Assembly (NCBI RefSeq): GCF_004799685.1
Contig: NZ_CP031311.1
Location: 2,783,355-2,847,354, forward strand
Length of the DNA stretch: 64,000 bases
Reading direction: 5' to 3'
From: Halobellus limi
GTDB lineage: Archaea; Halobacteriota; Halobacteria; Halobacteriales; Haloferacaceae
Shown piece by piece: positions 43,309 to 63,681 of this stretch (position 1 is the stretch's first letter; the number at the start of each line of letters is the position of its first letter). A model generated the notes under the pieces. The model searched no databases, was not told the DNA's origin, and saw only the letters and a program-made list of their open reading frames with translations. The position numbers were made by a program, and so were the translations under genes.

Positions 43309-44073
43309 ATGACCGCCCCCGCGAACCACCCGATCAAATCCCTGGAGAAGACGGTCGAGATCATCGACCTCCTCAAACGGCGTCGGTCGGCGCACCTCGG
43401 GGAGGTGGCCGAGGAACTGGACCTGAACAAGAGCACCGTCCACAACCACCTGAGTACGCTCCGAGAACACGAGTACGTGGTGAAAGACGGCGAGGAGTAC
43501 CGGCTGAGTCTGCAGTTCCTCCACATCGGCGGCGTGCTCCGGAACGAGATCGACCTCTACGAGGCGGCGAAGCCCAAACTCGATCGGCTCGCCGAGGATA
43601 CCGGAGCGCTCGTGACGCTGGCGACGCACGAGCGGGGCCTGGGTACCGTGCTCTACCGCGCGAAAGGAGCGGACGCCGTCGAGATCGACACGCACGTCGG
43701 CAGTCAGCTCACGCTGCACAACTCGGCGCTCGGGAAAGCGATACTCGGACACCTCCCACGGTCCCGCGTCGAGGAGATCGTCGACGAACGGGGGCTGCCG
43801 GCGGCGACGGAGAGCACGATCACCGACGAAGCGGAACTGTACGACGAACTCGACGAGGTCCGAGAGCGCGGGTGGGCGTTCGACGACGAGGAGAACTGGC
43901 GCGGACTGCGCTGTGTGGGTGCACCCATACTCACCGACGAGGGCGTCGTGAAGGGCGCAATCAGCATCTCCGTCCCGAAGAGTCAGCTCGCGACGGACGG
44001 AGACCGACAGGGGTACGTCGACGAGATCAAGAGCACGGCGAACCTGATCGAACTCCGCCTGGCGTACGCCTGA
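43309..44073 (+). CDS. IclR-family transcriptional regulator
   Basis: 254-residue regulator. The N-terminal winged helix (about 8-70) has SLEKTVEIIDLLKRR, LNKSTVHNHLSTLREHEYVV. The C-terminal IclR effector domain (about 80-250) has LATHERGLGTVLYRAKG, LHNSALGKAILGHLP and RCVGAPILTDEGVVKGAISI. IclR proteins often control glyoxylate-bypass and aromatic catabolism genes; here it is divergent from malate synthase and central in the catabolic region. Its stop codon TGA overlaps the first base of the 81-bp palindromic repeat. Confidence 0.93.
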   Translation: MTAPANHPIKSLEKTVEIIDLLKRRRSAHLGEVAEELDLNKSTVHNHLSTLREHEYVVKDGEEYRLSLQFLHIGGVLRNEIDLYEAAKPKLDRLAEDTGALVTLATHERGLGTVLYRAKGADAVEIDTHVGSQLTLHNSALGKAILGHLPRSRVEEIVDERGLPAATESTITDEAELYDELDEVRERGWAFDDEENWRGLRCVGAPILTDEGVVKGAISISVPKSQLATDGDRQGYVDEIKSTANLIELRLAYA

Positions 44074-44451: not shown

Positions 44452-47445
44452 CTAGCGGGGCGCGTCGCCGAGTGCGTGGTCGAGCAGTTCGATCGGGTGC
44501 GGGGGGTTCTCCGAGACGAGCGCACTGTCGCCGATCTGGCTCCGACAGGAGCCGCCGGGCGCGACCACCCGCGTGGCCTCGCTCGCCCGGATCTTCTCGA
44601 ACAGGAGTTCGCCGATCGACTTCGAGACGTCGTAGTGTTCGGCCTCGTAGCCGAAGGAGCCCGCCATCCCGCAGCAGCCGGAATCGAGCGGGTCGACGTC
44701 GTACCCCACCCGGCGCAGGACGCCGACGGCGTGGTGGTCTTTCCCCGCCGCGTGCTGGTGGCAGTGGCCGTGGTAGGCGATCGACTCACCGAGGGCGTCC
44801 TCCGAGACCGGCAGCGACTCGACGAGTCGGTGAACGTCGAGGTACTCGCAGACGCCGTAGGCGTGGTTGGCGACCCGTTCGGCCGCCTCCGTGGCCAGCA
44901 GATCCGTGTACTCGTCTTGGAAGACCACGGCGTCGCTGGGTTCGACGGCGACGACCTCCCAGCCGTCGTCGAGGTATTCGGTGAAGGCGTCGACGTTCGT
45001 CCGCGCGCGGTCGGCCGCGCGGTCGAGGAGACCGACCGAGTACGCCGCCCGCCCGCTGGGAGCGAGGTCCGTCGGGATGTGCACGTGGACGCCCGCGGCC
45101 TCGAGGACCCGGACCGCGGCCTTCCCGGGCTCGGGGTAGCTGTAGTTCGTGTACGTGTCCGGGAACAGGAGGACCTTCCGGTCGGCCTCCGCCGCCGAGA
45201 CGGCCGGTTCGCGCCGCCGGAACCACTCGACGAGCGACTCCTCGGCGAACGGCGGGAGCGACCGCTCGGGGGCGATCCCGAAGACCTTCTCCATCACGAC
45301 GTCCGAACCGGGAACCTCCATCGCCCAGTTCGAGAGCGGCGCGAGCCGCGAGCCCCACTTCGACGCCGCGTCGATGTTGCCGAAGAGCTTCGAGCGCAGG
45401 CTCGACCCCTCCGCCTCGTGGTACTGGTGTTTGAGTTCGGACTTGAGCTTCGCCATATCGACGCCGGTCGGACAGTCCGACTTACAGCCCTTGCAGCCGA
45501 CACAGAGGTCCAGGACGTCTTCCTGGAAGTCCGCGGACCGCAGCCGCTCTTCGGGGATCTCGCCGCTTATCGCGGCCCGGAGCATGTTCGCGCGTCCCCG
45601 CGTCGTCGCCAGTTCGTCGTCGGTCGCCCGGTACGTCGGACACATCACGTCGGCGTCCTGCTGGCGACACGTCCCGCAGCCGTTGCAGAGTTCGACGAGG
45701 TGGGAGAAGCCGCCCTCCTCGGAGAAGTCGAGTTTCGTCTGTGGTTCGATCGAGGCGTACGATGCACCGTAGCGCAGGTGCTCGCGCATGTCCGTCGGGT
45801 CGTCCTCGCGGTAGACGACCTTCCCCGGGTTCATCCGCCAGTCGGGATCGAACGCCGTCTTGAGGTCCTGAAAGGCCGTCCAGAGGTCCTCGCCGTACAT
45901 CTTCGGGTTGAACTCCGTCCGCGCGAGGCCGTCGCCGTGCTCCCCGGAGAACGCACCGTGGTGTTCGACGACGATGTCGGTGACGTCGTCGGCGATCGAG
46001 CGCATCTTTTCGATTCCGTCCTCCTCCTTCAGCGAGAGGATCGGCCGGATGTGGAGCGTGCCGCTGCCGGCGTGGGCGAAGTACGCCGCGGAGGTCCCGT
46101 GGTCGTCGAGGATGTCCATGAACTTCTGCGTGTACTCGGCGAGCTCTTCGGGCGGGACGGTCGCGTCCTCGATGAACGGGTACGGTTTCGGGTCCCCTTC
46201 GAGGCTCATCAGGAGCGGAATCGCCGCCTTCCGGAGCTTCCAGAGGTCCGCCTGCGACTCCTGGGTGTAGGCCTCGATGGCGTCGAAGGCGTCCCCGGCG
46301 TCGACGAACCGCTCGTTGACCTCGGCGACGGCCGCCTCGAAGTCGTCGACGAGTTCGGAGTCGAACTCGATCATCAGCGCCGCGGCCGTCCCCTCCGGAA
46401 TCGGCTCCTCGTAGCGGGCGTACTGCTCGGACTCCCTGGCGAGTCGGAACACCTCCGCGTCCATCAGTTCGACCGCGCTCACCTCGTGTTCGAGCGCCCT
46501 GGGCACGGCTTCGAGCGCGTCGATCAGGTCCTCGAAGCAGTACAGCGCCAGCGCCGTCTCTTCGGGCTTCGTAACGAGCGACAGTTCGGCCTCGACGACG
46601 ACGCCGAGGGTCGACTCCGCCCCGACGAACAGCTTCGAGAGGTTGATGACGTCGTCGCCGGCGTCGTTCTCGTAGATCGCCTTGTTCAGGTTGTACCCCG
46701 AGACGTTGCGCTTCAGGTCGGGGTAGCGAGCGTCGATCTCCTCGGCGTTCTCCTCGACGAGCCGTCGAACGGTGCGGTGCAGTTCCGCCTCGCGGGAGTC
46801 TCTCGCCATCAGTTCCTCCCACTCCGGACCGTCGAGGACGATCTCTCTCGTTTCGATCAGGCTGCCGTCCGCGAGCACCACTTTCAGGCGCTCGGTGTAG
46901 GCGTCCGTGATGCCGTATCTGACCGAGTGCGCGCCCGTGGAGTTGTTGCCGATCCCGCCGCCGACGGTCGCCCGGTTCGAGGAGGCCGGATCGGGCGCGA
47001 ACTTCAGCCCGTCTTCGGCCAGCCGCGCGTCGAGGTGGTCCTGAACGACGCCGGGCTGGACGGCCGCCCGCTTCTCCTCCGGGCGGATTTCGAGAATGTC
47101 GTCCATGTGCGTCGAGACGTCGAGGACGAGACAGCCCGGGCCGACCGCCTGCCCGCCCAGCGAGGAGCCGGTCCCCCGGGCGATGACCGGCACGTCGTGG
47201 TCGGCGGCGACGGCGACCGCTGCCCTGACGTCCCCGACGCCTTTCGGCTCGACGACGCCGGCGGGGCGGGCCTGGTAGATGCTGCCGTCGGTGGCGTAGA
47301 GGATCTGGGCGTACTCGTCGAACCGCACCGCGCCGTCGACCTCCGTCCGGAGGTCAGCGGCCAACGCCGCGTACTCCGCCGCCTCGTCCCTCGGCGACGC
47401 GGGGGAGACTGCTCCCTCCGCTTCCGGGACGGTCTTTTGTGACAT
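44452..47445 (-). CDS. FAD-linked D-2-hydroxyacid dehydrogenase fused to Fe-S/CCG domains (GlcD-GlpC type)
   Basis: 997-residue fusion that would oxidise a D-2-hydroxyacid (D-lactate or glycolate) and pass electrons to a carrier. A PCMH-type FAD domain (about 40-260, with ARGTGSSLGGQAVGPGCLVL) is followed by the FAD-oxidase C-terminal domain (about 280-545, HAGSGTLHIRP). Two 4Fe-4S motifs follow near 583 (CNGCGTCRQQDADVMCPTY) and 643 (CVGCKGCKSDCPTG). Two CCG domains end the protein (HGHCHQHAAGKDH and GCCGMAGSFGYE near 918-945, GGSCRSQI). Start MSQKTVPE at 47445. Neighbouring malate synthase and glyoxylate-type aminotransferase favour glycolate as a substrate, but that is inference. Confidence 0.92.
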   Translation of the reverse strand: MSQKTVPEAEGAVSPASPRDEAAEYAALAADLRTEVDGAVRFDEYAQILYATDGSIYQARPAGVVEPKGVGDVRAAVAVAADHDVPVIARGTGSSLGGQAVGPGCLVLDVSTHMDDILEIRPEEKRAAVQPGVVQDHLDARLAEDGLKFAPDPASSNRATVGGGIGNNSTGAHSVRYGITDAYTERLKVVLADGSLIETREIVLDGPEWEELMARDSREAELHRTVRRLVEENAEEIDARYPDLKRNVSGYNLNKAIYENDAGDDVINLSKLFVGAESTLGVVVEAELSLVTKPEETALALYCFEDLIDALEAVPRALEHEVSAVELMDAEVFRLARESEQYARYEEPIPEGTAAALMIEFDSELVDDFEAAVAEVNERFVDAGDAFDAIEAYTQESQADLWKLRKAAIPLLMSLEGDPKPYPFIEDATVPPEELAEYTQKFMDILDDHGTSAAYFAHAGSGTLHIRPILSLKEEDGIEKMRSIADDVTDIVVEHHGAFSGEHGDGLARTEFNPKMYGEDLWTAFQDLKTAFDPDWRMNPGKVVYREDDPTDMREHLRYGASYASIEPQTKLDFSEEGGFSHLVELCNGCGTCRQQDADVMCPTYRATDDELATTRGRANMLRAAISGEIPEERLRSADFQEDVLDLCVGCKGCKSDCPTGVDMAKLKSELKHQYHEAEGSSLRSKLFGNIDAASKWGSRLAPLSNWAMEVPGSDVVMEKVFGIAPERSLPPFAEESLVEWFRRREPAVSAAEADRKVLLFPDTYTNYSYPEPGKAAVRVLEAAGVHVHIPTDLAPSGRAAYSVGLLDRAADRARTNVDAFTEYLDDGWEVVAVEPSDAVVFQDEYTDLLATEAAERVANHAYGVCEYLDVHRLVESLPVSEDALGESIAYHGHCHQHAAGKDHHAVGVLRRVGYDVDPLDSGCCGMAGSFGYEAEHYDVSKSIGELLFEKIRASEATRVVAPGGSCRSQIGDSALVSENPPHPIELLDHALGDAPR

Positions 47446-48495: not shown

Positions 48496-48580
48496 TGCCG
48501 TACACGTCCCCGCCGGGTATAAATACTCTTTCGCAACGCCGTGACGGATGCGCCGGTACGCGCCGAGCGGACATATATTG

Positions 48581-48588: not shown

Positions 48589-48612
48589 GCCCCCTGCTCC
48601 GAATGCTCCCCT

Positions 48613-49755
48613 ATGCAGCAACCACCGGATACCGATCCACTCAATCCGCCGCAACGGACGCTCATGGGCCCCGGGCCGAGCGAGGTCCACCCGCGCGTCC
48701 TCCGAATCATGAGCGCGCCGCTCATCGGCCACCTCGACTCGGCGTTCATCGAGATCATGGACGAGGTCCAGGAACTCCTCCGGTACACGTTCCAGACGGA
48801 CAACCGCTGGACGATCCCGGTGAGCGGAACCGGGTCCGCGTCGATGGAGACCGCGTTCGGGAACCTCGTCGAACCGGGCGACACCGTGCTCGTGCCGACG
48901 AACGGCTACTTCGGCGACCGGATGGAGTCGATGGCGGAGCGCGCGGGCGGCGAGGTCGTCCACGTCGACGCGCCGTGGGGCGAGCCGCTCGACCCCGACG
49001 ACGTGGCCGCGGCGTTCGACGAACACGACCCCGACGTGTTCGGGTTCGTCCACGCAGAGACGAGCACGGGCGTCCTCCAGCCGCAGGTGCCGGAGCTCAC
49101 GAGCATCGCCCACGAGCACGACGCGTACGTGATCGCCGACTGCGTGACCTCGCTGGGCGGCGTGGAACTCCGCGTCGACGAGTGGGGGATCGACGTCGCC
49201 TACTCGGGCGGCCAGAAGTGCCTCTCCTGCCCGCCGGGCGCGAGCCCGCTCACGCTCAACGACCGGGCGATGGAGAAGGTACTGAGCCGCGACACCGACG
49301 TCCGCTCGTGGTACCTCGACCTCTCGCTGCTGGAGGGCTACTGGGGCGAGGAGCGCTCGTATCACCACACGGCCCCGATCACGAACGTCTACGCGCTGCG
49401 CGAGGCGCTCCAGTTGGTCGCCGAAGAGGGGCTGGAAGCGCGCTGGGAGCGCCACCGGGAGATGGCCACCGAACTCAAGGAGGGGCTCGAAGAGATGGGG
49501 TTGGAGATGAACCCCGACGACGAGTTCTGGCTCCCGTCTCTGAACGCGGTTCGCGTCCCCGACGGGGTCGACGACGGGAAACTCCTCGCGGAACTGCAGG
49601 AGGAACACGACCTGGAGATCGCGAGCGGTCTGGGCGATCTCGAGGGCGAGATCCTCCGGATCGGCTGTATGGGCTACTCAGCGCGGACGCCGAACATCCA
49701 GTTCGTCCTCTCCGCGCTCGAAGAGGCGCTGGCGAACCAGGGCTACGAAGCGTAG
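48613..49755 (+). CDS. Class-V aminotransferase, serine/alanine-glyoxylate type
   Basis: 380-residue PLP enzyme. Family blocks: LMGPGPSEVHPRVL near the start, VSGTGSASMETAFGNLVEPGD, HAETSTGVLQP, AYVIADCVTSLGG (D176 contacts PLP) and YSGGQKCLSCPPG with the Schiff-base lysine K202. This matches serine- or alanine-glyoxylate aminotransferases, which form glycine from glyoxylate. With malate synthase and a 2-hydroxyacid dehydrogenase nearby it suggests glyoxylate handling. Other class-V substrates (ureidoglycine, aminoethylphosphonate) cannot be excluded. The last codons are part of a 35-bp duplication. Confidence 0.9.
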   Translation: MQQPPDTDPLNPPQRTLMGPGPSEVHPRVLRIMSAPLIGHLDSAFIEIMDEVQELLRYTFQTDNRWTIPVSGTGSASMETAFGNLVEPGDTVLVPTNGYFGDRMESMAERAGGEVVHVDAPWGEPLDPDDVAAAFDEHDPDVFGFVHAETSTGVLQPQVPELTSIAHEHDAYVIADCVTSLGGVELRVDEWGIDVAYSGGQKCLSCPPGASPLTLNDRAMEKVLSRDTDVRSWYLDLSLLEGYWGEERSYHHTAPITNVYALREALQLVAEEGLEARWERHREMATELKEGLEEMGLEMNPDDEFWLPSLNAVRVPDGVDDGKLLAELQEEHDLEIASGLGDLEGEILRIGCMGYSARTPNIQFVLSALEEALANQGYEA

Positions 49756-49812
49756 CGCGTCAGCGGTGCGGAGTTCCTAACGAAGCGTAACGCGTCAGCG
49801 GCGCGGAACGCA
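49746..49812 (+). repeat. 35-bp tandem duplication at the aminotransferase 3' end
   Basis: Units start at 49746 and 49781 with CGAAGCGTA(G/A)CGCGTCAGCG; the first 27 bases match at 25 positions. The first unit contains the last codons and stop of the aminotransferase, so the gene's tail has been copied into the non-coding region. Confidence 0.7.
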
Positions 49813-49843
49813 CTCGCGAAACGAGGCGACGAAACGAAGTTCG

Positions 49844-49922
49844 ATACTGAGTACGCTCACTTTGTGCCGCCGAGCACCACTTCCCTTGCCGGCGCTCGGC
49901 GGTGGGAGACGAGAGTAACCAT
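49844..49922. repeat. ~80-bp palindromic element, copy 2
   Basis: Related to 44073-44153: begins ATACTGAGTACGCTC, has GCCGCCGAGC and the matching GCGCTCGGCGG around a loop, and ends GAGAGTAACCAT. The right outer end is more decayed than in the other copies. It sits between the convergent aminotransferase and ThDP-enzyme genes, 22 bp beyond the latter's stop. Confidence 0.8.
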
Positions 49923-49944
49923 CACGAGACGGCGGCGGCCGCGA

Positions 49945-51669
49945 CTACTCCTGTTCGACCCGCACGTCCAACACGGACGGGGTGCCGCTCTCGACCGCGT
50001 CGAGGCCCGCCCGGAGCGCGGGTCCGAGGGAGTCGACCGAGTCGACGACGGCCGTGTGCGCGTCGACCACGTGCGCGGCGTGAGAGAGGTCGAGGGTCGG
50101 CTCGAATCGGCTCTCGGGGACGCCCGCCGCCGCGGCGCTCGCGTCGGGGTGTTGATCGAGCGTCGAGGTCCGGACGGCGTTCCACCGCGAGTTGTTGTAC
50201 ACCACCGTCAGCGACGGCGCGTCGTGGGCGGCCGCCATCCACGCCGACGCCGTGGGGTTGCCGAAGACGTAGGAACCGTCGCCGACCAGCGAGATCACGG
50301 TGTGGTCCGGTGTGGCCAGTTTGACCCCCGTCGCCGCGCCGGGCGCCCAGCCGAGCCCGGAGCCGTACGGCGAGCGGTAGCTCCCCGGCCGTTCGAGGTC
50401 CAGGTGCTCCAGGACGGTGCGCTTGTTCGTCGTCGTCTCGTTGAGGACGACGGTCGACTCGTCGACGACGTCGTCGATCGCGTCCGTCAGCACCTCGGGC
50501 GTCAGCAGCCCGTCGCGGTACTGCGCCTCCAGCGACTCGGCACGCGCTCGGAGCCGCGCTTCGTGTTCGCCGCGCCAGGGCTCTCGACCGGGCTCTGCGG
50601 CCCGCGATTCGAGCCGGTCGGCGACGGCGGCGAGGGTCGCGCCGGGGTCGGCCCGGACGGCGAGGTCGGTCTCGAAGTCCCAGAGGGGGTACTGCGGCTT
50701 CTCCGGGTCGACGTCGAGGTGCACGATCGGCACGTCGTCGTCGACCGGCCGCGACGACGGCGGTTCCCAGGGGACGTCGGCGTCGGCGAGGACGACGAGG
50801 TCCGCCCGCGCCATCGCCGCCTTCGGATCGAAACCGACGTGGAGGTCGTGCGTCCGCGGGAAGTTCAGCGCCGTCGGACGTTGTTCGACGACGCCCGCGC
50901 CCGCGGCTTCGGCGAAGCGTCGGAGCCGTTCGACCGATTGCTCTCCCTGATTCGCCCCGAGCTTGCTGGTCACGACGAGCGGGGCGTCCGCCTCGCGGAC
51001 CGTCGACGCGAGCCGATCGACCGACTCGGCGTCCGCGCCGACTGGCCGAGCGTCCGTGAGGGAGTGGGAACCGGGCGTCGAGTCGACGGTCGTTTCGAGG
51101 GCCTCGCGGGTCGCCGTGAGGTAGCTCGGCCCCCGCCGCGGCGTCGACGCGAGTTCCAGGCCCCGGGCGACGAACTCGTCGGGGTCGGCGGGCGGGCGGT
51201 ACTCGCCCGTCCACCGGCAGTACTGTTCGACGACCGCGTCCTGGTCGTAGACGTCCTGAATGTACTGGATGCCGCTGGAGCGCGCGCCCGGTTCGTCGCC
51301 GTGGGTGATCGGGGCCAGTCCGGCGAAGATGAACACCGGGACGTCTCCGCGGTGGGCGTTGTGGACCATCGCCCCGAGGTTCTGCGTGCCGACGTCGACG
51401 TGGACGAACACCGCCTGCGGCCGGCCGGTCACCGCCGCGTAGCCGTCCGCCGCGCTCAGCGCCCCCGACTCGTGGGGACAGGTCACGAACTCCGGAATCG
51501 AATCGGGATCGTCTTCCCGAATTCGCGCCGCCGCCTCCAGGAGCGGCGTGTGATCGGTCCCGAAGTTGCCGAAGACGTACTCGACGCCGTACTCGCGCAG
51601 CGACCGAAGTATCACGTCGGCCGCGGTCGATTCGCTCTCGCCCGTGCTCTCCGCTCCGGGATCGTCCAT
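49945..51669 (-). CDS. Thiamine diphosphate-dependent enzyme (acetolactate synthase/benzoylformate decarboxylase-like)
   Basis: 574-residue three-domain ThDP enzyme. The N-terminal PYR domain has the catalytic Glu E67 in CPHESGALSAADGYA. The central domain (about 195-330) includes PLVVTSKLGANQGEQS. The C-terminal PP domain has the ThDP/metal motif starting GDGSYVFGNP and ending VVYNN. It belongs to the decarboxylase/carboligase group acting on 2-oxo acids. The Glu argues against glyoxylate carboligase, which lacks it. Start MDDPGAES is set by a TATA box 25-32 bp upstream. Specificity unknown. Confidence 0.88.
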   Translation of the reverse strand: MDDPGAESTGESESTAADVILRSLREYGVEYVFGNFGTDHTPLLEAAARIREDDPDSIPEFVTCPHESGALSAADGYAAVTGRPQAVFVHVDVGTQNLGAMVHNAHRGDVPVFIFAGLAPITHGDEPGARSSGIQYIQDVYDQDAVVEQYCRWTGEYRPPADPDEFVARGLELASTPRRGPSYLTATREALETTVDSTPGSHSLTDARPVGADAESVDRLASTVREADAPLVVTSKLGANQGEQSVERLRRFAEAAGAGVVEQRPTALNFPRTHDLHVGFDPKAAMARADLVVLADADVPWEPPSSRPVDDDVPIVHLDVDPEKPQYPLWDFETDLAVRADPGATLAAVADRLESRAAEPGREPWRGEHEARLRARAESLEAQYRDGLLTPEVLTDAIDDVVDESTVVLNETTTNKRTVLEHLDLERPGSYRSPYGSGLGWAPGAATGVKLATPDHTVISLVGDGSYVFGNPTASAWMAAAHDAPSLTVVYNNSRWNAVRTSTLDQHPDASAAAAGVPESRFEPTLDLSHAAHVVDAHTAVVDSVDSLGPALRAGLDAVESGTPSVLDVRVEQE

Positions 51670-51693
51670 CTCGTCGGGACTGTTCAGGGCGAC

Positions 51694-51701
51694 AGTATAT
51701 A
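51694..51701 (-). promoter_or_regulatory. TATA box of the ThDP-enzyme gene
   Basis: TATATACT/ATATAT patch on the minus strand, 25-32 bp upstream of the ATG at 51669. Confidence 0.6.
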
Positions 51702-51734
51702 TCGATTCGCTCTGGCCGGGCAGAGTCGGCGGTG

Positions 51735-51784
51735 GACCGGTCCGTGCTCCGAACCGGGTCCGTGCTCCGAACCGGGTCAATCCT
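51735..51784 (+). repeat. 18-bp tandem repeat at the LDH/MDH-like gene end
   Basis: About two and a half units of GAACCGGGTCCGTGCTCC (51751-51768 complete, a 16-bp variant before, a partial after). The last unit contains the stop codon of the minus-strand LDH/MDH-like gene. Lies upstream of the ThDP-enzyme promoter. Confidence 0.65.
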
Positions 51785-52748
51785 CGAACCGGCGGACGTC
51801 CTCGCGGACGGCGTCGTACGCCTCGCGGAGACGCGCCGACTCCCACTCGTCGAGGTCCCACTCGATCGTCCGATCGATTCCGCCCTCGGCCAGGGTCACG
51901 GGAACGCTCAGACACGCGTCGGTGAACCCGTACTCGCCGTCGAGCGGCACGGAGAGACAGAGCGGGTCGGTGGCCCCCGGCGAGGAGAGCCCTCGGAGCA
52001 CCCGGAGCAATCCCGCACCCGACACCCAGCGCGAGGAGTCCGCGATCCCGCGCTTTTCGGCGATCTCGAACGGGATCTCCAGAACTTCGTCGACGATCTC
52101 GTCGCGTTCCGCCGGGGTGAACGGGACCGCCTCCCCCGCGACCGTCGCCCGGGAGAACACCGGGACCACGCGCTCGCCGTGTTCGCCCATCGTCGGGCAC
52201 GAGACGCGCGTCGGGTGGACACCGTGGCGCCGGGCGATGGCGTCGGCGACGCGGGCGGTCTCGGCGAGGGAGAACCCCATCACCTTCGATCGGGGCCAGC
52301 CGAGCCGGCTCCAGAGCCGGTAGACGATGCGGTCGACGGGGTTGGTCACGACGACGGTCGGCACCGGATCGATCGCGTCGAGGGAGTCCGCGATGCCGTC
52401 GATGAGCGGGAGGTTGGCGTCCAGTTCCCGAGTTCGCGCGCCGCGCGAGCCCCGCTGAGTGTCGTCCGCGCTCGGCGGAACCCGAGCGGTGACGACGACG
52501 GCGTCGAGGTCGTACTCGCCGATATCCTCCGTGGGGGCGTACGTCACCTCGCCGGGGGCGGCTTCCGCCGCCGAGCGCGGCCCGCCGGCCAGGTGGTAGC
52601 TCGCGTGCCGCAGATCAGTCGCGTGGCCCCACGCGGCGTCCAGCGCCGCCTCGAACAGCGTAACGGAGTTGTGCGGGTCGTCACAGACGAGGCCGTAGGC
52701 CAGCGTCGATCCGATCGTGCTCGCGCCGCCGATGATACCGACGTGCAT
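51777..52748 (-). CDS. Divergent lactate/malate dehydrogenase-family protein
   Basis: 323-residue LDH/MDH-type NAD enzyme. The N-terminal Rossmann loop is IIGGASTIGSTLAYG, acidic LFEAA follows strand 2 (NAD preference), then VVTNPVDRIVYRLW. The catalytic His is H190 in TMGEHGERVVP. The usual LDSARFR helix, whose Asp pairs with the His, reads AETARVA, with Glu163 in place of Asp. Substrate-loop arginines are present around 99-107. It probably acts on malate or another 2-hydroxyacid; the changes suggest an unusual substrate. It has its own TATA box and a leaderless start. Confidence 0.85.
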   Translation of the reverse strand: MHVGIIGGASTIGSTLAYGLVCDDPHNSVTLFEAALDAAWGHATDLRHASYHLAGGPRSAAEAAPGEVTYAPTEDIGEYDLDAVVVTARVPPSADDTQRGSRGARTRELDANLPLIDGIADSLDAIDPVPTVVVTNPVDRIVYRLWSRLGWPRSKVMGFSLAETARVADAIARRHGVHPTRVSCPTMGEHGERVVPVFSRATVAGEAVPFTPAERDEIVDEVLEIPFEIAEKRGIADSSRWVSGAGLLRVLRGLSSPGATDPLCLSVPLDGEYGFTDACLSVPVTLAEGGIDRTIEWDLDEWESARLREAYDAVREDVRRFED

Positions 52749-53133: not shown

Positions 53134-53140
53134 TAATATA
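53134..53140 (+). promoter_or_regulatory. TATA box of the amidohydrolase-2 operon
   Basis: TAATATA, 27 nt before the ATG at 53168, supporting MRMGRFVI as the start and ruling out an Arg-rich upstream extension through the repeat array. Confidence 0.6.
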
Positions 53141-53167: not shown

Positions 53168-54268
53168 ATGCGAATGGGAAGATTCGTTATCGATACCCAC
53201 GTTCACGGCCAGCGGGTCGCCGTGAACTTCGAGAACAGAGAGGAGAAACCGGACTACGCCACGCTCAGTAAACTGATGTGGCAGGCCGAGGACGCCGACC
53301 AGGCGGACGACGACGCCGAGATCGTCACCTACCGCAACACGGACCGGCTCCTGTACGATATGGACCTCTACGGCGTCGACATGGTCTGTCTCCAGCCCGG
53401 GTTCGGGTTCAGCGACCGGCTCCACGGGAAGATGGTCGAGGAGCACCCCGACAAGTTCGTCGCGTTCGCGCACCCCTACGAGACGAACCGGAAGGCGGTC
53501 GCCGGCGAGGAGGAGTGGGACATCGACCGCGCCTGCGAGGAGATGGACGAGCGACTCAGCCAGGACGGCTTCGTCGGCATCGGCGAGATGCTGCCGTTCG
53601 ACCCGACGATCACCGAGCGCGCCGAGCGGATCCCGTGGGAGGAGCGCCACGATCAACTGCGGAAGATCTACGACGTGGCCGCGAAACACGACGTGCCGGT
53701 GCGCTGGCACCCCGGTTCGGTGAACGGCGGCTACGAGCGCGACCCCGGAACGCTCCTGCCGGATCGCCGCGACATCAAGTACGCGATCGACCTGCACCTG
53801 GAGTACCCGGAAGTGCCGATCATCATCGACCACGGCGGCGTCCAGGGCAACTGGCGGAAGAACGTCGAGGAGTCCTGCAACGTCGCGGCGACGTACGACA
53901 ACGTCTACATCGAGATCGGCAACTACTGGTCGGACCTGATCAAGCGGCCGATGAACGACCCGAACATCGGCCCCGAGCAGCTGATCTGGGGGACCGACTG
54001 GGGCGCGTCGTGGATCGCGACGAACAACCCGGCGAACCGGTCGACCGGCGAGTACGACTACCCGCCGCAGCGGTGGACGCAGATCAAGAGCCGCGGCCTG
54101 CAGGCCCACCAGGCCGACGCGTGGGGCACCTCGATGCGGCAGATCGACAAGTACGCCCGCGAGGTCGACCTCCCCGCGGACGACCTCAACCTCATTATGG
54201 GCGGGAACGTCTGCCGGCTGCTCGACATCGACCCGCCGCACAAGCGACTCTTCCCCGAGTACATCTGA
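53168..54268 (+). CDS. Amidohydrolase-2 (ACMSD-like) family metalloenzyme, paralog 2
   Basis: 366-residue paralog of the protein at 38560-39654; by eye about half the residues match along the whole length. Metal-ligand motifs are the same: IDTHVHGQR, VRWHPGSVNG, IIDHGGVQG, WGTDWGASW. Both end with PPHKRLFPE plus a short tail. It differs in the 40 residues after the DxDDD stretch and in the loop before HPG, so substrates may differ. First gene of a likely five-gene operon: amidohydrolase, ligase, TRAP receptor, TRAP permease, FAH-family enzyme. Co-location with an importer points to a scavenged carboxylate. Confidence 0.9.
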   Translation: MRMGRFVIDTHVHGQRVAVNFENREEKPDYATLSKLMWQAEDADQADDDAEIVTYRNTDRLLYDMDLYGVDMVCLQPGFGFSDRLHGKMVEEHPDKFVAFAHPYETNRKAVAGEEEWDIDRACEEMDERLSQDGFVGIGEMLPFDPTITERAERIPWEERHDQLRKIYDVAAKHDVPVRWHPGSVNGGYERDPGTLLPDRRDIKYAIDLHLEYPEVPIIIDHGGVQGNWRKNVEESCNVAATYDNVYIEIGNYWSDLIKRPMNDPNIGPEQLIWGTDWGASWIATNNPANRSTGEYDYPPQRWTQIKSRGLQAHQADAWGTSMRQIDKYAREVDLPADDLNLIMGGNVCRLLDIDPPHKRLFPEYI

Positions 54269-54278
54269 CGCAGCCGCC

Positions 54279-55847
54279 ATGCAGGTACCATCCAGAGTGG
54301 AGTTGCCCGCGGTCCGGGAGCTATCGAGCATCGCCGCCGAGAACAATCCCGACCGGGTCGCCTACGGGAACGGCGTTTCGGGTCGCGAGATAACGTGGGC
54401 GGAGTTCGACGCCGAGAGCAACCGCGCGGCGAACGCCCTCAGATCGCACGTGAGACAGGGCGACCGGATCGCGTACCTCACCGAGGCGAGCGTCGAGCAG
54501 ACGATACTCTGGAACGCCGGACTGAAAGCGGGCTGTATCGTCTCGAACCTCCACATTCGCGACTCGCCGGAGCGGGTCAGGACCTGCCTGGACGCGCTCC
54601 GACCCCGCGTGCTCGTCGTCGACGAGGAGCGCTCTGCGTTCGTCGAGGAGCACGTTTACGACGAGGCCTCGACCGCGATCGACGCGGTCGTCACGACGGG
54701 CGAACCGCAGACGGCGTACGAGCGGTCGATGGACTCGTTCGTCGGCGGGCAACCGGCGGTCGAACCGGACGTGAACGTCGATCCCGACGACATCGCCGTG
54801 GTGATGTGGACGTCGGGCACGACGGGGGAACCGAAGGGGTGGTCACACACCAACCGCGGGCTGGTCCACCGGGCGATGAAGCTCGCGCACAAGAAGGGGA
54901 CCACGCGGCTGACCCGCGTGTCGAACTTCTTCACCCCCTCCTTCGCCGCGTGGTACTCGACGACGCTGCCGACGATGCTCGCGAACGGGGCCTCCTACTA
55001 CGTCAAGCAGTGGAGTCCGGAGGCGTACGTCGAACTCGTCGAGGAGCGGGAGATCACCAGTTCGAACCTGGTTCCGACGATGTGGCGCGAGGTGCTCCGG
55101 CTCGACGACCTCGACGACTACGACCTGAGCAGCCTCGTGACGGTCGAATCAGGCGGGGAGACGCTGAACACGACGACGCTCGAAGGGCTGCAGGAGCACG
55201 TGTCGCCGTCGGTGTCGCAGTCCTACGCCGCGACCGAGGTCTGCGGGACGTACATCGACGCCGACGAGATGCGCGGCGAGCGTATCGACAGCGTCGGAAA
55301 GCCGCTGCTCGGCGTGCAGGTCCGCGTGGTCGAACACGGCGGGTCGCCCGAGGACGTACTGGAACCGGGCGAGGTCGGCGAGATCATCGTCAAGTCCAGC
55401 GACGCCGCCGTCTGGGTCTGGGGCGACACCGAAAAGACACGGGAGTCCTTCGAGGACGGCTGGTGGTACTCCGGCGACCTCGGGTACAAGGACGAGGAGG
55501 GCTACCTCTTCATCGAGGGCCGCGACGACGACATGATCCTCTCGAAGGGGATCAAGGTCTTCCCCGCGCCGGTCGAGGAACGACTGAACGAGCACCCCGA
55601 CGTCGTCGAGTCCGCGGTGTTCGGCGTGGAGGACGACGAGTACGGCGAACGGGTGACCGCGGCCGTCCAGACGACGGCCGGGGGCCTCGACGCAGAGGAC
55701 CTCGACGAGTGGTGTCTGGAGAGCGAGAAGCTCTCGCGGTTCGAGCGCCCGCGGGAGTATCACTTCTACGCGGAGACGCTCCCGCGGACGGCCAGCGACA
55801 AACTGGACCGCGCGGCGATCAAGGAGCGCTCGATCGACGAGCGTTAG
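54279..55847 (+). CDS. AMP-forming acyl-CoA synthetase, paralog 2
   Basis: 522-residue adenylate-forming ligase paralogous to 37011-38558. A3 motif is VVMWTSGTTGEPKGWSHTNR, A5 QSYAATEVCG, then WWYSGDLGYKDEEGYLFIEG. The A10 lysine lies in TASDKLDRA, where the Gly of the usual SGK is Asp, a change in the catalytic loop worth noting. The gene starts 10 bp after the amidohydrolase stop. Substrate unknown; the partner enzymes suggest an aromatic or cyclic acid. Confidence 0.92.
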   Translation: MQVPSRVELPAVRELSSIAAENNPDRVAYGNGVSGREITWAEFDAESNRAANALRSHVRQGDRIAYLTEASVEQTILWNAGLKAGCIVSNLHIRDSPERVRTCLDALRPRVLVVDEERSAFVEEHVYDEASTAIDAVVTTGEPQTAYERSMDSFVGGQPAVEPDVNVDPDDIAVVMWTSGTTGEPKGWSHTNRGLVHRAMKLAHKKGTTRLTRVSNFFTPSFAAWYSTTLPTMLANGASYYVKQWSPEAYVELVEEREITSSNLVPTMWREVLRLDDLDDYDLSSLVTVESGGETLNTTTLEGLQEHVSPSVSQSYAATEVCGTYIDADEMRGERIDSVGKPLLGVQVRVVEHGGSPEDVLEPGEVGEIIVKSSDAAVWVWGDTEKTRESFEDGWWYSGDLGYKDEEGYLFIEGRDDDMILSKGIKVFPAPVEERLNEHPDVVESAVFGVEDDEYGERVTAAVQTTAGGLDAEDLDEWCLESEKLSRFERPREYHFYAETLPRTASDKLDRAAIKERSIDER

Positions 55848-55960
55848 GACGGTGTTACACTGTTACGGACAGTGTTTACAGGCTCGGACTACCACAGACC
55901 GACGAGAAATCGCCGCGTACGGGCGTCTCGCGGTGTTTTTCGAGCCGGGTACCAAAACAC

Positions 55961-55967
55961 TTAAATT
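55961..55967 (+). promoter_or_regulatory. TATA box before the TRAP receptor gene
   Basis: TTAAATT within ACACTTAAATTGTAATAATT, 23 nt before the ATG at 55991. The TRAP genes can therefore also be transcribed independently of the ligase gene 143 bp upstream. Confidence 0.6.
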
Positions 55968-55990
55968 GTAATAATTATATCTGACCGAGT

Positions 55991-57121
55991 ATGGCAAACG
56001 ATACCAGAGGCAACGGTAGCTCTAGCAGCGCACGTCGTCGCGGCTTCCTGAAGAAGGCCGGACTCCTCGGAACGGTCGGTCTCGCAGGGTGTATGGGCGG
56101 CGGAGACGGCGGGGGTAGCGGTGACTCCTCCGGCGACGGCGGTGACAACGGCGGCGACTCCGGCGGCGATTCGGGCGGCGACGGCGGCGGCGAAGAGACG
56201 ACCTCCGGCGGCGGGGGAGGCGGCGAGGAGACGCTGGTTATGGGTACGGCCTCGGAGGTCAGCGCGAACTTCGCGATGATGTCCGGACTCGGCGGCGTCG
56301 TGAACGAGAACACCGACGAGGTGTACCTGGACGTCCGTCCGAGCGCCTCGATGGCCGCGAACATCGGCCGAATGGCCAGAGACGAGATCGACATCGGACT
56401 GATCGAGAGCACGACGGCACACGACGTGAACGTGGGCAACGAGCCCTTCGGCGACGTCGCCGTCGACCTCCGACAGATCGTCCACGGCTCCACCTCGGAC
56501 TGGTTCCTCTTCGCGGAGGACGACCAGTACTCGACCATCGACGACATCGGGCCGGACACCTACGTCGCGCCCGGTCCGTCCGGATCGCGCGTGACGGACA
56601 TGGTCCGGCGGGTCCTCGAACTCGCGGGCGTCGAGTACCAGGAGCGGACGACCGGGTACGGCGATATGGGCGCGGCGGTCGCCGAAGGGCGCATCGACGT
56701 CGGTCTCGGCGCGTTCACGAACGTCCAAGTCGGAACCGTCACGCCGGGGTGGGTCCAGGAGATCAAGGGGACGGTCGACGCCCGACTGCTCGGTCTCCCC
56801 GCGGAACTCCAGAGCGGGATAAACGAGGAGGGCTGGGGGAACTCCTTCGAGTTCGAGGTCGACCCCGAGGGCTGGGCGCACGTTCCCGACACCCCCCGTT
56901 CGATGTCGCAGGTGACGTGGCTCTACGGGACCGCGGAGACGTCGACGGACGCGGTCTACAACGTGCTCGAGGCGATGTACGAGAACCGGGATTCGATGGG
57001 CGACTACCACGAGCTGCTCTCGTTCTACACGAACGACGACCACTGGACGCGTGAACCCCACCCGGGCTTTTCCCTCCACCAGGGGACCCAGGACTTCCTC
57101 GACGAGTACGGCCTGAACTAG
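55991..57121 (+). CDS. TAXI-family TRAP transporter solute-binding lipoprotein
   Basis: 376-residue extracytoplasmic receptor. The Tat-type signal has RRR at 15-17 (SARRRGFLKKAG) and a lipobox LAGC with the lipidated Cys at 34, followed by a long Gly/Asp/Ser linker (about 35-78) typical of secreted haloarchaeal proteins. The mature domain (about 80-376) matches the TAXI family: LVMGTASEVSANFAMMSGLGG, DEIDIGLIESTTAH, DTYVAPGPSGSRVTDMVRRV, and EGRIDVGLGAF. TAXI receptors bind small organic acids or amino acids. Paired with the fused permease 24 bp downstream. Confidence 0.93.
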   Translation: MANDTRGNGSSSSARRRGFLKKAGLLGTVGLAGCMGGGDGGGSGDSSGDGGDNGGDSGGDSGGDGGGEETTSGGGGGGEETLVMGTASEVSANFAMMSGLGGVVNENTDEVYLDVRPSASMAANIGRMARDEIDIGLIESTTAHDVNVGNEPFGDVAVDLRQIVHGSTSDWFLFAEDDQYSTIDDIGPDTYVAPGPSGSRVTDMVRRVLELAGVEYQERTTGYGDMGAAVAEGRIDVGLGAFTNVQVGTVTPGWVQEIKGTVDARLLGLPAELQSGINEEGWGNSFEFEVDPEGWAHVPDTPRSMSQVTWLYGTAETSTDAVYNVLEAMYENRDSMGDYHELLSFYTNDDHWTREPHPGFSLHQGTQDFLDEYGLN

Positions 57122-57145
57122 ACCCGCACCCTTTAGAACGAAATA

Positions 57146-59182
57146 ATGAGCACGTATCTGAGACGGGAACGGCTCCAACGGCTCGGCGACTGGAGCGTCT
57201 ACATTTCCGGGCTAGCTCTGGGCCTGCTGTTGCTGTACTACGCCGAGACGTTCTACGGGGCCAGGGTCCGCCACACGAACCTGGTCCTCGGGCTGTGTCT
57301 GGCCATCTTCTATCTGGGTCTCTTCCGGGACGCGTTGGGGCCGATCGAGGAGAAGGCGGGAACGTACCTGCGTCACCTCTCCGAGCGGATCGATCGGGGC
57401 TACGTCCGGTTCGTCAGGCCGACGATGTTCCTCGGGCTGGCCGCCCTCTCGATGGTCATTATGGTCTACATCGACATCCATCACGTGCGGCTGATGGAGG
57501 AGGGGCCGATCGTCGGGTACCGGACTGCGGACTACGTGATCGGGGCGATCATCGTGTATCTCTGTACCGACGTCACGGTTCGCTCCTTCGGGAAGCTCAT
57601 GGCGTCGATCGTCCCGCTCGGGTTCCTGTACGGGTACCTCGGGCCGTACCTGCCCGGGGCGCTCTACCACAGCGGGATGGGCACCGAGCAGTTGCTCCGC
57701 CTGACGGTCCTCGGGATGCAGGGCGTCTACGGTTTCATCCTCCAGGTCGGTGCGACGTGGGTCGCGATATTCCTGCTGCTCGCCGGCCTCACCAAGGCGT
57801 ACGGTATTCTGGACTACCTGATGGACGTCAGCAAGGAGTTGAGCAAGCTGTTCAGATCCGGCATCGTCCACGCGGCCGTGTTGGCGAGTCTGGCCTTCGG
57901 GTCGATCACCGGCGCGTCGGCGGCGAACACGGCGACGACCGGGAGCTTCACCATCCCGCTGATGAAGAATCAGGGCGTCGACAAGGGATACGCGGGCGGG
58001 ATCGAAACGGTCGCCTCGATCGGGGGCCAACTCGTTCCGCCGATCATGGGCATCGCGGCGTTCATCATGGCCGATCTCCTGGGGCTCTCCTACGTCAGGA
58101 TCATCCAGGCGGGACTCATTCCGGCGGTGCTGTTTTACTTCAGCGTCGTCGTCTCGGTGCAGCTCCTGATCTACAAGTTCGGCTGGCAGACCACCCGGAA
58201 CGTGAAGGACATCGAATACGGCGTGTTTCTGGAGATCCTCTGGTACGTCGCTCCGTTCGTCGTGCTGATCTACTACCTGGCCGTGCTGCAGTACACGCCG
58301 CTGACGTCGGGCTACTACGCGACGCTGACGCTGATCGGCATCGTCGCGGTGAAGTACGTGGTCGAACAGCGCTCCGTCGGCGTGAAAAGCGCCGTCAAAG
58401 ACACCGCCGAAGGGCTGAAAGTCGGCTCCGAGGAGATGGCACCGCTGCTCGTGATCCTCGGTGCGATCGGGATCATCATCGCGGTGTTCACCCAGACGGG
58501 GTTCGCCCAGCGGCTGAACACGCTGATGATCAGCCTCGCCGGCGGGAGCGTGCTGCTCCTCTTGCTCCTGGCGATGGGCGTGAGCCTCATCTTCGGGCTC
58601 GGGATGCCGGCGCCGGCGGCGTACGTGCTCGTCGCCTCGCTCGCGGGCGCGGCGATGGTCCGGTTCGGGCTCCAGGAACTCGTCGCGCACATGTTCGTCT
58701 TCTACTTCGCGATGTACTCCTCGCTCACGCCGCCGGTCGGGCCGTCGACGATCGTCGCCGCGAAGATCGCCGACGCGGAGTACATCGACACGGCGATCAA
58801 GTCCTCGAAGCTCGCGTTGCCGGGGTTCGTCATCCCCTTCATATTCGTCGCGAACGACGTGCTCATCTACTGGGACTTCCTCTCGACGGTCCTCGTGACG
58901 TTCGCGGTGCTGGCGGGCATCGTCGGCCTCTCGATGACCATCTTCGCGTACGACGGGAGCAGCCGACTCTCGACCGTCGGCCGCTCGATCTACGGGACGC
59001 TGGCCGTCCTGACGTTCTTCGGAACGTACCTGGGACTCTTCGGGCTCACCACGCAGGTGGCGATCGGCGCAGCGATCATCGTGCTCGTGGTCGCAACGTC
59101 CGTGGTGGAGGTGCCCGGCGTCTCGCGGATGTACGCGCAGTACCTCACGAAGCCGTCGCCGGTGGCCGAATCGAGCAACTGA
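57146..59182 (+). CDS. TRAP transporter fused 4TM-12TM permease
   Basis: 678-residue membrane protein with about 16-18 helices, combining the small (DctQ-like, first ~150 residues) and large (DctM-like) TRAP subunits in one chain, as is usual for TAXI systems. Conserved segments: GSITGASAANTATTGSFTIPLMK, GGIETVASIGGQLVPPIMG, FGLGMPAPAAYVLVASLAG and YSSLTPPVGPSTIVAAK. It would use the Na+ gradient, suited to a halophile. It follows the receptor gene by 24 bp; function as a pair is secure, substrate is not. Confidence 0.93.
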   Translation: MSTYLRRERLQRLGDWSVYISGLALGLLLLYYAETFYGARVRHTNLVLGLCLAIFYLGLFRDALGPIEEKAGTYLRHLSERIDRGYVRFVRPTMFLGLAALSMVIMVYIDIHHVRLMEEGPIVGYRTADYVIGAIIVYLCTDVTVRSFGKLMASIVPLGFLYGYLGPYLPGALYHSGMGTEQLLRLTVLGMQGVYGFILQVGATWVAIFLLLAGLTKAYGILDYLMDVSKELSKLFRSGIVHAAVLASLAFGSITGASAANTATTGSFTIPLMKNQGVDKGYAGGIETVASIGGQLVPPIMGIAAFIMADLLGLSYVRIIQAGLIPAVLFYFSVVVSVQLLIYKFGWQTTRNVKDIEYGVFLEILWYVAPFVVLIYYLAVLQYTPLTSGYYATLTLIGIVAVKYVVEQRSVGVKSAVKDTAEGLKVGSEEMAPLLVILGAIGIIIAVFTQTGFAQRLNTLMISLAGGSVLLLLLLAMGVSLIFGLGMPAPAAYVLVASLAGAAMVRFGLQELVAHMFVFYFAMYSSLTPPVGPSTIVAAKIADAEYIDTAIKSSKLALPGFVIPFIFVANDVLIYWDFLSTVLVTFAVLAGIVGLSMTIFAYDGSSRLSTVGRSIYGTLAVLTFFGTYLGLFGLTTQVAIGAAIIVLVVATSVVEVPGVSRMYAQYLTKPSPVAESSN

Positions 59183-59287
59183 TAGATCGTCGTAGCCAAC
59201 CGGCGATCCACAGATCTTCGGTTGGCCGAACGAACCCGGAGACCGTTTTTCCGTCGGGTTTTTACAGATCGCCGGGGAATCGCGGGT

Positions 59288-60001
59288 ATGCGACTCGCAC
59301 GGATGCAGACCCCGGAGGGACCGATCGCGGGGCGGTACGAGGACGGCACCGTCGTCGCCGACGACGGGCGGTACGTCGTCGGTCGCGACGGCGTCCTCAC
59401 GTATCCCTGCTCGCCCTCGGCGCTGTACTGCGTCGGCCGCAACTACGCCGAGACGCTCGATCAGATGGACTACGACCGCCCCGAGGAGCCCGACTTCTTC
59501 ATCAAGCCGCCGGCGTCCCTCGTCGGCCCGGAGGAACCGATCCGATACCCTCGGTGGACTGACGAACTGACCTACGCGGGCGAACTGGCCGCCGTCGTCG
59601 ACGAGCGGTGTCGCGACGTCGACCCCGAGGACGTCCCGGACGTGATCCGCGGCTACACGATTCTGAACGACGTCGACGCGCTCGATCAACAGGGACGGAC
59701 CGCGCGGAAGGCGTTCGATACGTCCGGACCGCTGGGGCCGTGGATCGAGACCGAGGTCACCCCCTACGACCTGGACGTCCGGACCGAGATCAACGGCGAG
59801 GTGCGCCAGGACGCCAACACCGAGTTGATGCTGTTCGATCCCTACGAGGTCGTCTCGTTCCTCTCACGGCGGTTCACGTTCCGGCCCGGCGACGTGATCG
59901 CGTTCGGCAGTCCGGCGAACCCGGGGACGATCGACCCCGGCGACGAGGTCGAGATCACCTACGAGGGCGTCGGCACCCTGAAAAACACCGTCGTCGGGTG
60001 A
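59288..60001 (+). CDS. Fumarylacetoacetate hydrolase-family enzyme
   Basis: 237-residue FAH-fold enzyme. The family includes acylpyruvases, fumarylpyruvate hydrolase and oxo-diene-dioate isomerases/decarboxylases used late in aromatic catabolism. Motifs: YCVGRNYAETLDQM, DFFIKPPASLVGPEEPI, TYAGELAAVVDERC (first metal Glu), GYTILNDVDALDQQ, and PGDVIAFGSPANPGT near the C-terminus. The ATG at 59288 gives the usual short form. Last gene of the amidohydrolase-ligase-TRAP cluster, 105 bp after the permease. It suggests that the pathway passes through an acylpyruvate-type intermediate (inference). Confidence 0.9.
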   Translation: MRLARMQTPEGPIAGRYEDGTVVADDGRYVVGRDGVLTYPCSPSALYCVGRNYAETLDQMDYDRPEEPDFFIKPPASLVGPEEPIRYPRWTDELTYAGELAAVVDERCRDVDPEDVPDVIRGYTILNDVDALDQQGRTARKAFDTSGPLGPWIETEVTPYDLDVRTEINGEVRQDANTELMLFDPYEVVSFLSRRFTFRPGDVIAFGSPANPGTIDPGDEVEITYEGVGTLKNTVVG

Positions 60002-62283: not shown

Positions 62284-63681
62284 ATGGCAGCAGGTGACAA
62301 ACCCAGCGCGACGGAACGAGCCCTCCAGGACGCTCGCGACTCGCTCGACGAGGGGTTCTTTCCGCTCGAGTTCTTCCACGACGAGGACCTCCACGACCTG
62401 GAGATGGAGCGCATCATCGGACAGTCGTGGGTGTTCATCGGTCACGAATCGGAGATCCCGGAGCCGGGCGACTACGCCCGTCGGTACATCGGCGACGACA
62501 CGTTCATCTTCGTACGCGACGAGAGCGGCGAGGTGAACCTGCTGTTCGATAGCTGTCGTCACCGCGGCGCGCAGGTCTGCCGCGCGGAGCAGGGCAACAC
62601 GTCGCACTTCCGGTGTCCGTATCACGGCTGGACGTACAAGAACGACGGCGAGGCCGCCGGCATCCCCCAGAAATCGAAGGCCTTCAAGAACCTCGACCGC
62701 TCGGAGTACGGGCTGGCGCACGTGCCCCGGTTGGAGAGTTACGAGGGCCTCGTGTTCGCCTCACTCGCCGAGGAGGGCCCGTCGCTCGACGAGTGGCTCG
62801 GCGACTTCAAGTGGTACTTCGACGTCCACATGAAGCTCCCCGAGGGCGGGATGGAGGTCATCGGCGAACCGCACCGTTGGGTCATCGACGCGAACTGGAA
62901 GACCATCGCGGACAACTTCAACGGCGACAGTTACCACACCGCGTGGGCCCACGGCTCGGTGCTCGACCTCGAACTCGGCGGCGAGGAGACGGTCGGTCAC
63001 GCGGGCACCGGCGACAGCCTCGACCGGCACATCCACTGCGACGGCCACACGACGAGTATGCGCGGCTTCGAGGGCGAGGACGTCTTCCTCACGTACCCCG
63101 ACGAGGTCGTCGAGGACCTGTTCACCAGAGAGGGCCTCTCCGATGCGCAGTGGCAACTGGCCCGGCAGGCGCTGTCGTTCACCGGCGCGATCTTCCCGAA
63201 CTTCGGGTTCCTCCACTTCGGCGACACTACCGACGATCCCGAGAAGGACGTCGCGCCCTTCTTCACCATCCGGAAGTGGCGGCCGCTCGGCCCCGATCAG
63301 ATGGAGCTGTGGAGCTGGGGGCTGGCCCCGAAGAACGCCCCCGAGGAGTTCAAACAGCGGATGTACAAGATGTACACCGCGAACTTCGGCCCGACGGGGA
63401 ACTTCGAGCAGGACGACGTGCCCATCTGGAAGGGCATCACCGACTCCGCCAGCGGGCAGTTCGCCAGCAGTCAGAACCTCCAGTTGAACTACCAGATGGG
63501 CCTCGAGTGGATGAGCGAGATGGACATCGACGAGGAGTGGCTCGGCCCCGGCTTCGCCTACTCGGAGAACCTCGAGGAGGGCGGGATGCGCCTGTTCCAC
63601 GAGCAGTGGTACGAGATGCTCGCGGGCAACGACCGGACCGACGCGACCGGGACGCCGATAAACCTCCAGGAGGACCGGTGA
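62284..63681 (+). CDS. Aromatic-ring-hydroxylating oxygenase, alpha (Rieske) subunit
   Basis: 465-residue catalytic subunit that dihydroxylates an aromatic ring with O2. The Rieske cluster has C91-x-H93 (SCRHRGA) and C111-x2-H114 (CPYHGW). The mononuclear iron site is NFNGDSYHTAWAH with H218 and H223 and the bridging Asp D215; the third ligand is a later Asp. The overall type resembles benzoate/toluate/biphenyl-class alpha subunits that pair with a beta subunit, which is encoded next with a one-base TGATG overlap. The reductase and ferredoxin are not in the window and may follow to the right. Confidence 0.95.
   Translation: MAAGDKPSATERALQDARDSLDEGFFPLEFFHDEDLHDLEMERIIGQSWVFIGHESEIPEPGDYARRYIGDDTFIFVRDESGEVNLLFDSCRHRGAQVCRAEQGNTSHFRCPYHGWTYKNDGEAAGIPQKSKAFKNLDRSEYGLAHVPRLESYEGLVFASLAEEGPSLDEWLGDFKWYFDVHMKLPEGGMEVIGEPHRWVIDANWKTIADNFNGDSYHTAWAHGSVLDLELGGEETVGHAGTGDSLDRHIHCDGHTTSMRGFEGEDVFLTYPDEVVEDLFTREGLSDAQWQLARQALSFTGAIFPNFGFLHFGDTTDDPEKDVAPFFTIRKWRPLGPDQMELWSWGLAPKNAPEEFKQRMYKMYTANFGPTGNFEQDDVPIWKGITDSASGQFASSQNLQLNYQMGLEWMSEMDIDEEWLGPGFAYSENLEEGGMRLFHEQWYEMLAGNDRTDATGTPINLQEDR

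Follow-up and report, generated by a model that had tools for sequence, protein, structure and literature searches.

Within a 64,000-nucleotide stretch of the Halobellus limi genome (the window; C1:2783355-2847354, on contig NZ_CP031311.1; the genome spans 3.75 Mb over 4 contigs) we analysed a run of five genes that an initial annotation had described as a self-contained operon for uptake and degradation. They encode an amidohydrolase (AH1), a coenzyme A (CoA) ligase (CL1), a TAXI-family receptor, a fused TRAP permease and an FAH-superfamily protein. Reading frames and Pfam matches bore out all five, head to tail, and the analysis identified the AH-CL pair, not the five-gene set, as the conserved unit.

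53168..54268, + strand: AH1, PF04909 amidohydrolase, 366 amino acids (Pfam)
54279..55847, + strand: CL1, AMP-forming acyl/aryl-CoA ligase, 522 amino acids (Pfam)
55991..57121, + strand: TAXI-family TRAP solute receptor (NMT1_3), 376 amino acids (Pfam)
57146..59182, + strand: TRAP fused permease, 678 amino acids (Pfam, NCBIfam)
59288..60001, + strand: FAH-superfamily protein, 237 amino acids, E-x-E site reading A-G-E (Pfam); a longer frame with a TTG start begins at 59222

AH1 scored 44.3 bits against PF04909 (Amidohydro_2; cut-off 26.4). CL1 belongs to the ANL superfamily, with 210.3 bits against PF00501 (cut-off 29.9) and 50.5 bits, also above the cut-off, against PF13193; its scores against the 25 NCBIfam models listed all fell short of their cut-offs. 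Judged by Pfam, the CL1 domains are intact. The receptor scored 79.5 bits against PF16868 (cut-off 27) and 62.1 bits against TIGR02122 (TRAP_TAXI), under the cut-off of 84.35. It gave three weak PDB sequence matches, and by eye its N-terminus carries an RR motif and a Cys resembling a twin-arginine translocation (Tat) lipoprotein signal. The permease scored 208.7 bits against PF06808 (cut-off 23.8) and 409.9 against the TRAP_fused model TIGR02123 (cut-off 320.65), so that by PF16868 and TIGR02123 the two genes have the composition of a TAXI-TRAP transporter. The proposed uptake and CoA-dependent degradation of a carboxylate remains the likely reading.

The FAH protein is a clear superfamily member (187.5 bits against PF01557; cut-off 23.9), but it lacks the E-x-E motif of the metal-dependent enzymes. 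This motif, which we take to bind the metal, reads A-G-E in all seven orthologues, the window's included, with the first Glu missing; in the aligned structures 1gtt (second domain), 3qdf and 4pfz the same site is E-A-E or E-G-E. Because of this replacement the FAH-type cleavage put forward in the initial annotation is doubtful, and the protein should not be taken to perform canonical FAH chemistry.

The gene order AH1-CL1-TAXI-TRAP-FAH is repeated in H. rarus (L021), H. captivus (L023) and genome G352 (L073); given this recurrence across relatives, the five frames did not line up by chance. Variants of the order exist. H. rufus (L022) carries an additional AH gene between TRAP and FAH, G355 keeps AH1-CL1-TAXI-TRAP (L069) with FAH farther along (L068), and in H. 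clavatus (L024) and G381 (L065) AH1-CL1 is kept with no TAXI-TRAP beside it. Among 17 Halobellus genomes, AH1 orthologues (at least 93% identity) occur in seven and TAXI orthologues (at least 78%) in six.

The intergenic gaps measure 10 (AH1-CL1), 143 (CL1-TAXI), 24 (TAXI-TRAP) and 105 bases (TRAP-FAH). When the gaps were aligned across five species, short A+T blocks were conserved just upstream of AH1 and TAXI, with diverging sequence beyond, and promoter-like boxes were found before three genes:

53134..53140, + strand: TAATATA, 34 bases upstream of AH1, kept in the five aligned species
55961..55967, + strand: TTAAATT, 30 bases upstream of TAXI, its A+T block kept in the five aligned species
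59259..59265, + strand: TTTTTAC, 29 bases upstream of FAH

H. rarus and G352 share the FAH box exactly, whereas H. rufus has a similar sequence and H. captivus a weaker one. No such box was found for CL1 or TRAP in the gap alignment and scan. As a background, a 7-mer with at least six A/T in the scanned interval precedes 3.1% of random window positions. The spacing between box and gene presumably fits haloarchaeal promoters with short leaders. Since only AH1, TAXI and FAH have a box in front of them, we infer three putative transcription units, AH1-CL1, TAXI-TRAP and FAH, the last of which would be transcribed separately from the other two.

A single co-transcribed, self-contained operon is consistent with the head-to-tail order kept in H. 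rarus, H. captivus and G352. It is at odds with the separate boxes, with the extra AH gene that separates TRAP from FAH in H. rufus and with the species that have AH1-CL1 without an adjoining TAXI-TRAP. The five genes are therefore probably not one operon, a model to which we give only a slight chance. Nor is a self-contained set supported, as no ring-opening step is found among the five genes and partner genes are likely to lie elsewhere.

What is conserved is the AH-CL pair. The H. limi genome (G000) holds three AH genes, each paired with a CL; two of the pairs lie in the window and the third, AH3-CL3, on contig C2. The initial annotation does not mention AH2-CL2 or AH3-CL3. The second pair in the window comprises:

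38560..39654, - strand: AH2, AH1 paralogue, 54% identical (Pfam; 40.7 bits against PF04909)
37011..38558, - strand: CL2, CoA ligase partner of AH2, 45% identical to CL1 (Pfam)

Among 32 full AH genes in the loci examined, 24 have a CL on the same strand within 400 bases; some of the loci L021-L032 seem to be the same genomes as, for example, G392-G395, and the rows are not all independent. One genome, G355, has eight AH matches. In each of 12 orthologue comparisons AH was better conserved than its partner CL (93% versus 69% in H. clavatus). The transporters adjoining the pairs differ, with TAXI-TRAP at AH1-CL1 and a branched-chain-amino-acid-type ATP-binding cassette (ABC) system at AH3-CL3; further ABC systems lie near AH-CL pairs in L024, L032, L065 and L070. 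Gene names in loci not run through a family library, these included, were assigned by eye.

The AH subfamily is rare. AH matches at E ≤1e-40 occur in 6 of 392 haloarchaeal genomes and 4 of 95 genera; with the AH profile, the phylum-wide sample gave one positive genome in 392, H. limi itself. A search of genome contigs with AH returned 13 loci, of which four Halobellus species contributed 12 and a Lachnospiraceae metagenome-assembled genome the other, and a plasmid collection gave three distant matches, two of them in unrelated contexts. The Lachnospiraceae gut genome (L033:6808-14531) carries two tandem AH relatives of about 30% identity. By eye, their neighbours include DctPQM-type TRAP, 3-hydroxyisobutyrate-dehydrogenase-like and creatinase/prolidase-like genes, with 2-oxoacid dehydrogenase genes just before. 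The H. limi genome has thirteen PF04909 matches in all, and five lie on contig C2 (398 kb).

The surroundings of the third pair point to aromatic substrates:

contig C2 (L005:289-13779 and L074:12038-15069): cluster of a CoA ligase, two LigM/DesA-like proteins, IclR, a thioesterase-like protein, a MetF-like protein, a Liv-type ABC system, an HpaI-like aldolase and an extradiol-type dioxygenase

Here AH3-CL3 lies with a LigM/DesA-like O-demethylase, a weak MetF match, the HpaI-like aldolase and a catechol-2,3-dioxygenase-like protein. The LigM/DesA-like protein matched 5tl4 (E 7e-116) and scored 516.2 bits against DesA (cut-off 800) and 455.2 against LigM (cut-off 580), below both NCBIfam equivalog cut-offs. 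The cluster is likely a methoxy-aromatic gene cluster.

This association extends across genomes. A LigM-type protein is present in 18 of the 392 haloarchaeal genomes and in five of the six AH-positive ones, a co-occurrence with hypergeometric probabilities, not corrected for kinship, of 6.6e-7 when counted by genome and 0.0033 when counted by genus. Members of the CL clade (E 1e-130) occur in 11 of 392 genomes, all of them LigM-positive, and in seven of these the CL and LigM genes lie on the same strand no more than 0.6 kb apart. Before tree building, AH and CL rows containing X or shorter than 300 and 400 amino acids, respectively, were dropped, exact duplicates were removed and the Lachnospiraceae AH pair was left out. 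In the CL tree, 23 AH-linked (AH within 400 bases) and 7 LigM-linked (LigM within 1000 bases) ligases fell on opposite sides of one branch with support 100/100, and none of 500 shuffles gave a value as low. The remaining 9 of 39 rows had neither label; among them are long branches, as well as ligases of H. captivus that adjoin AH frames with unread bases. Given this split and the co-occurrence, a single ligase family seems to pair with either AH or LigM.

On plasmids of Halosolutus gelatinilyticus and Halostagnicola larsenii, as annotated, the ligase-LigM type is accompanied by genes for an acyl-CoA thioesterase, a dehydrogenase (hydroxyacid or NAD(P)-dependent), an aldolase and VOC proteins, and by genes of folate synthesis. 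On the haloarchaeal plasmids L100 and L101, the ligase-LigM clusters occur together with folP and with genes of the pabB and folD types, which looks as though the supply of folate accompanied O-demethylation.

The residues H11-x-H13, E140, H181, H222 and D277 of AH1 are common to AH2 and AH3 and fit a metal-dependent PF04909 enzyme, in which we assume the H-x-H, E, H, H, D set to have a metal role. The H-x-H...H...H...D pattern also occurs in some PF04909 decarboxylases and hydrolases. AH1 matched no NCBIfam model and its sole PDB sequence match was weak (3cjp, E 0.0024); profile A3 gave two PDB matches. The AlphaFold model of AH1 had a mean predicted local distance difference test score (pLDDT) of 73.3 and a predicted template modelling score (pTM) of 0.81. 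Assigning function by fold was tried and abandoned, with Foldseek and VIA-align matches near-tied across decarboxylases, a hydratase, a lactonase and hydrolases: 3cjp gave Z 20.5, dihydroxybenzoate decarboxylases about 19.8, ACMSD 19.3, LigJ 18.8 and LigY 18.6. As the Z scores were so close, no reaction was chosen from the fold.

As the best explanation of these data, with a probability of about 0.42, we propose that the AH-CL cassette beside its own uptake unit serves as a CoA-dependent entry step into methoxy- or hydroxy-aromatic catabolism, feeding a multi-locus pathway in Halobellus and a few other haloarchaea. The TAXI receptor and TRAP permease would import an aromatic carboxylate, which CL would convert to its CoA thioester. 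The metal-dependent AH would then cleave the thioester in retro-Claisen style, giving an aromatic acid and acetyl-CoA, and degradation would be completed by functions encoded at other loci, namely LigM/DesA-like O-demethylation, extradiol cleavage and an HpaI-type aldolase. The cleavage step is modelled on CouL/CouO of Rhodococcus jostii RHA1 and HpeE/HpeF of Rhodococcus GD02, in which a CoA synthetase is followed by an amidohydrolase-superfamily beta-ketoacyl-CoA hydrolase acting on lignin-derived phenolics (PMC4737184, PMC9618137). The adjacent acyl-CoA synthetase characteristic of CouO and HpeF is found at the 24 AH genes that have a neighbouring CL.

A close rival, itself tentative and nearly as likely, reverses the order: AH, as a decarboxylase of the LigW/dihydroxybenzoate type or a C-C hydrolase of the LigY type, may convert the free acid before CL activates the product. 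The nearest folds of the modelled AH1 include those decarboxylases and LigY at near-tied Z scores, and AH lies 5' of CL in the paired genes. Nothing specific speaks against this order. Gene order is a weak guide to reaction order, and the same ligase family is also paired with LigM where AH is missing.

A further alternative would place AH among the amidohydrolase-related dinuclear oxygenases, with the CoA thioester as the substrate to be hydroxylated. PtmU3 is reported to accept CoA-ligated substrates (PMC7782822), and SfbO (8sm6) was present among the Foldseek matches; it did not appear among the 50 VIA-align rows, an absence that excludes nothing. The published six-ligand set of AibH2 is D25-x-H27, H211, E265, D337 and H340. 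With positions matched by motif only, AH1 departs from the D-x-H, H, E, D-x-x-H set of the diiron oxygenases AibH2, PtmU3 and SfbO in reading H-x-H, H, H, D-x-x-A, that is, H11-x-H13, H222 where Glu is required and A280 where the last His is required. We therefore rejected the diiron-oxygenase assignment, which appears most improbable.

Both AH-CL pairs of the window are surrounded by genes of a different character (37011-52748), which are kept in several Halobellus species; a Rieske system lies downstream of FAH:

39923..41515, - strand: GMC oxidoreductase beside AH2, above the cut-off of a choline-dehydrogenase subfamily model (family search)
41689..42996, - strand: haloarchaeal malate synthase AceB, 841.9 bits (cut-off 780)
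43309..44073, + strand: IclR-type regulator (family search)
44452..47445, - strand: GlcD-type flavin adenine dinucleotide (FAD) oxidase fused to an Fe-S domain (family search)
48613..49755, + strand: class V aminotransferase (family search)
49945..51669, - strand: thiamine pyrophosphate (TPP) enzyme, PRK08327, 526.3 bits (cut-off 456)
51777..52748, - strand: malate/lactate dehydrogenase-family protein, divergent from AH1 (family search)
62284..63681, + strand: Rieske ring-hydroxylating dioxygenase alpha subunit, HcaE-like; the beta subunit follows and extends past the window

The HcaEF-like Rieske subunits (window 62284-63681 and L004:1036-3705) are followed by an aldehyde dehydrogenase gene, an arrangement kept in G352 (L073).

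The island could instead serve two- or three-carbon hydroxyacid or glyoxylate chemistry, or that of an arylglycolate side chain, and not ring catabolism, with AH-CL handling a small or ether-linked acid. Malate synthase, GlcD-type oxidase, aminotransferase, TPP enzyme, lactate-dehydrogenase-like protein and GMC oxidoreductase around both pairs argue for this, as does the finding that, of the 17 Halobellus genomes, the 6 with TPP orthologues (at least 81%) are also the 6 with TAXI orthologues. The third AH-CL pair, by contrast, sits in the aromatic cluster, AH co-occurs with LigM, and GlcD orthologues (72-82%) are present in three genomes that have no TAXI orthologue. We regard this explanation as unlikely.

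Several observations weigh against entry into aromatic catabolism through a CoA thioester. The malate synthase, GlcD and aminotransferase neighbours are not explained by it, and the fold matches do not discriminate between reactions. Pairing is incomplete on both sides: 8 of the 32 AH genes lack a CL at a distance of up to 400 bases, AH matches are missing from 6 of the 11 CL-positive genomes, and no CoA ligase was noticed near the Lachnospiraceae AH pair in a gene list inspected by eye. Genome G202 is AH-positive without LigM, but its AH match spans residues 117-365 only. No hydratase or dehydrogenase of side-chain beta-oxidation was noticed in the gene lists, also by eye, and the likeness to the bacterial CouL/CouO and HpeE/HpeF pairs, which like AH-CL join a CoA ligase to an amidohydrolase-superfamily protein, is a functional one.

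The unit worth studying is corrected from a five-gene operon to the AH-CL pair. If the aromatic interpretation is true, haloarchaea would possess a modular route into methoxylated aromatics, and a rare PF04909 subfamily, with no NCBIfam match and one weak solved relative, would gain a testable role. A bolder version, which we put forward as speculation, is that AH-CL cassettes, of which several have an importer of their own, are interchangeable, substrate-specific entry modules of an aerobic, CoA-dependent, lignin-type methoxy-aromatic pathway in Halobellus and a few other haloarchaea. On that version AH would be the first known archaeal amidohydrolase-superfamily enzyme to act on an aromatic CoA thioester. 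The cassette was undescribed in the literature searched, which did not cover most subscription papers; within that incomplete coverage the earlier statement that no archaeal example has been characterised held.

AH1 shares its fold with the PF04909 decarboxylases and hydrolases LigW, dihydroxybenzoate decarboxylase, ACMSD, LigJ and LigY, but differs from this group in its near lack of sequence matches, 3cjp being the only one in the PDB. In contrast to CouL/CouO and HpeE/HpeF, the haloarchaeal pair is multiplied and stands beside different transporters, with beta-oxidation partners not seen by eye. Like the tetrahydrofolate-dependent O-demethylase pathways of Sphingobium SYK-6, contig C2 has LigM/DesA-like, MetF-like and extradiol-type genes; unlike SYK-6 LigM/DesA, the haloarchaeal proteins stay under the equivalog cut-offs, and in their clusters LigM is joined by a CoA ligase and an acyl-CoA thioesterase. 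Uptake of lignin monomers by ABC and TRAP systems within one pathway has a precedent in CouPSTU and TarPQM of Rhodopseudomonas palustris (PMC3610893). By analogy, ABC and TRAP systems may share this task in Halobellus, where the TRAP receptor is of the TAXI type and comes with a fused permease.

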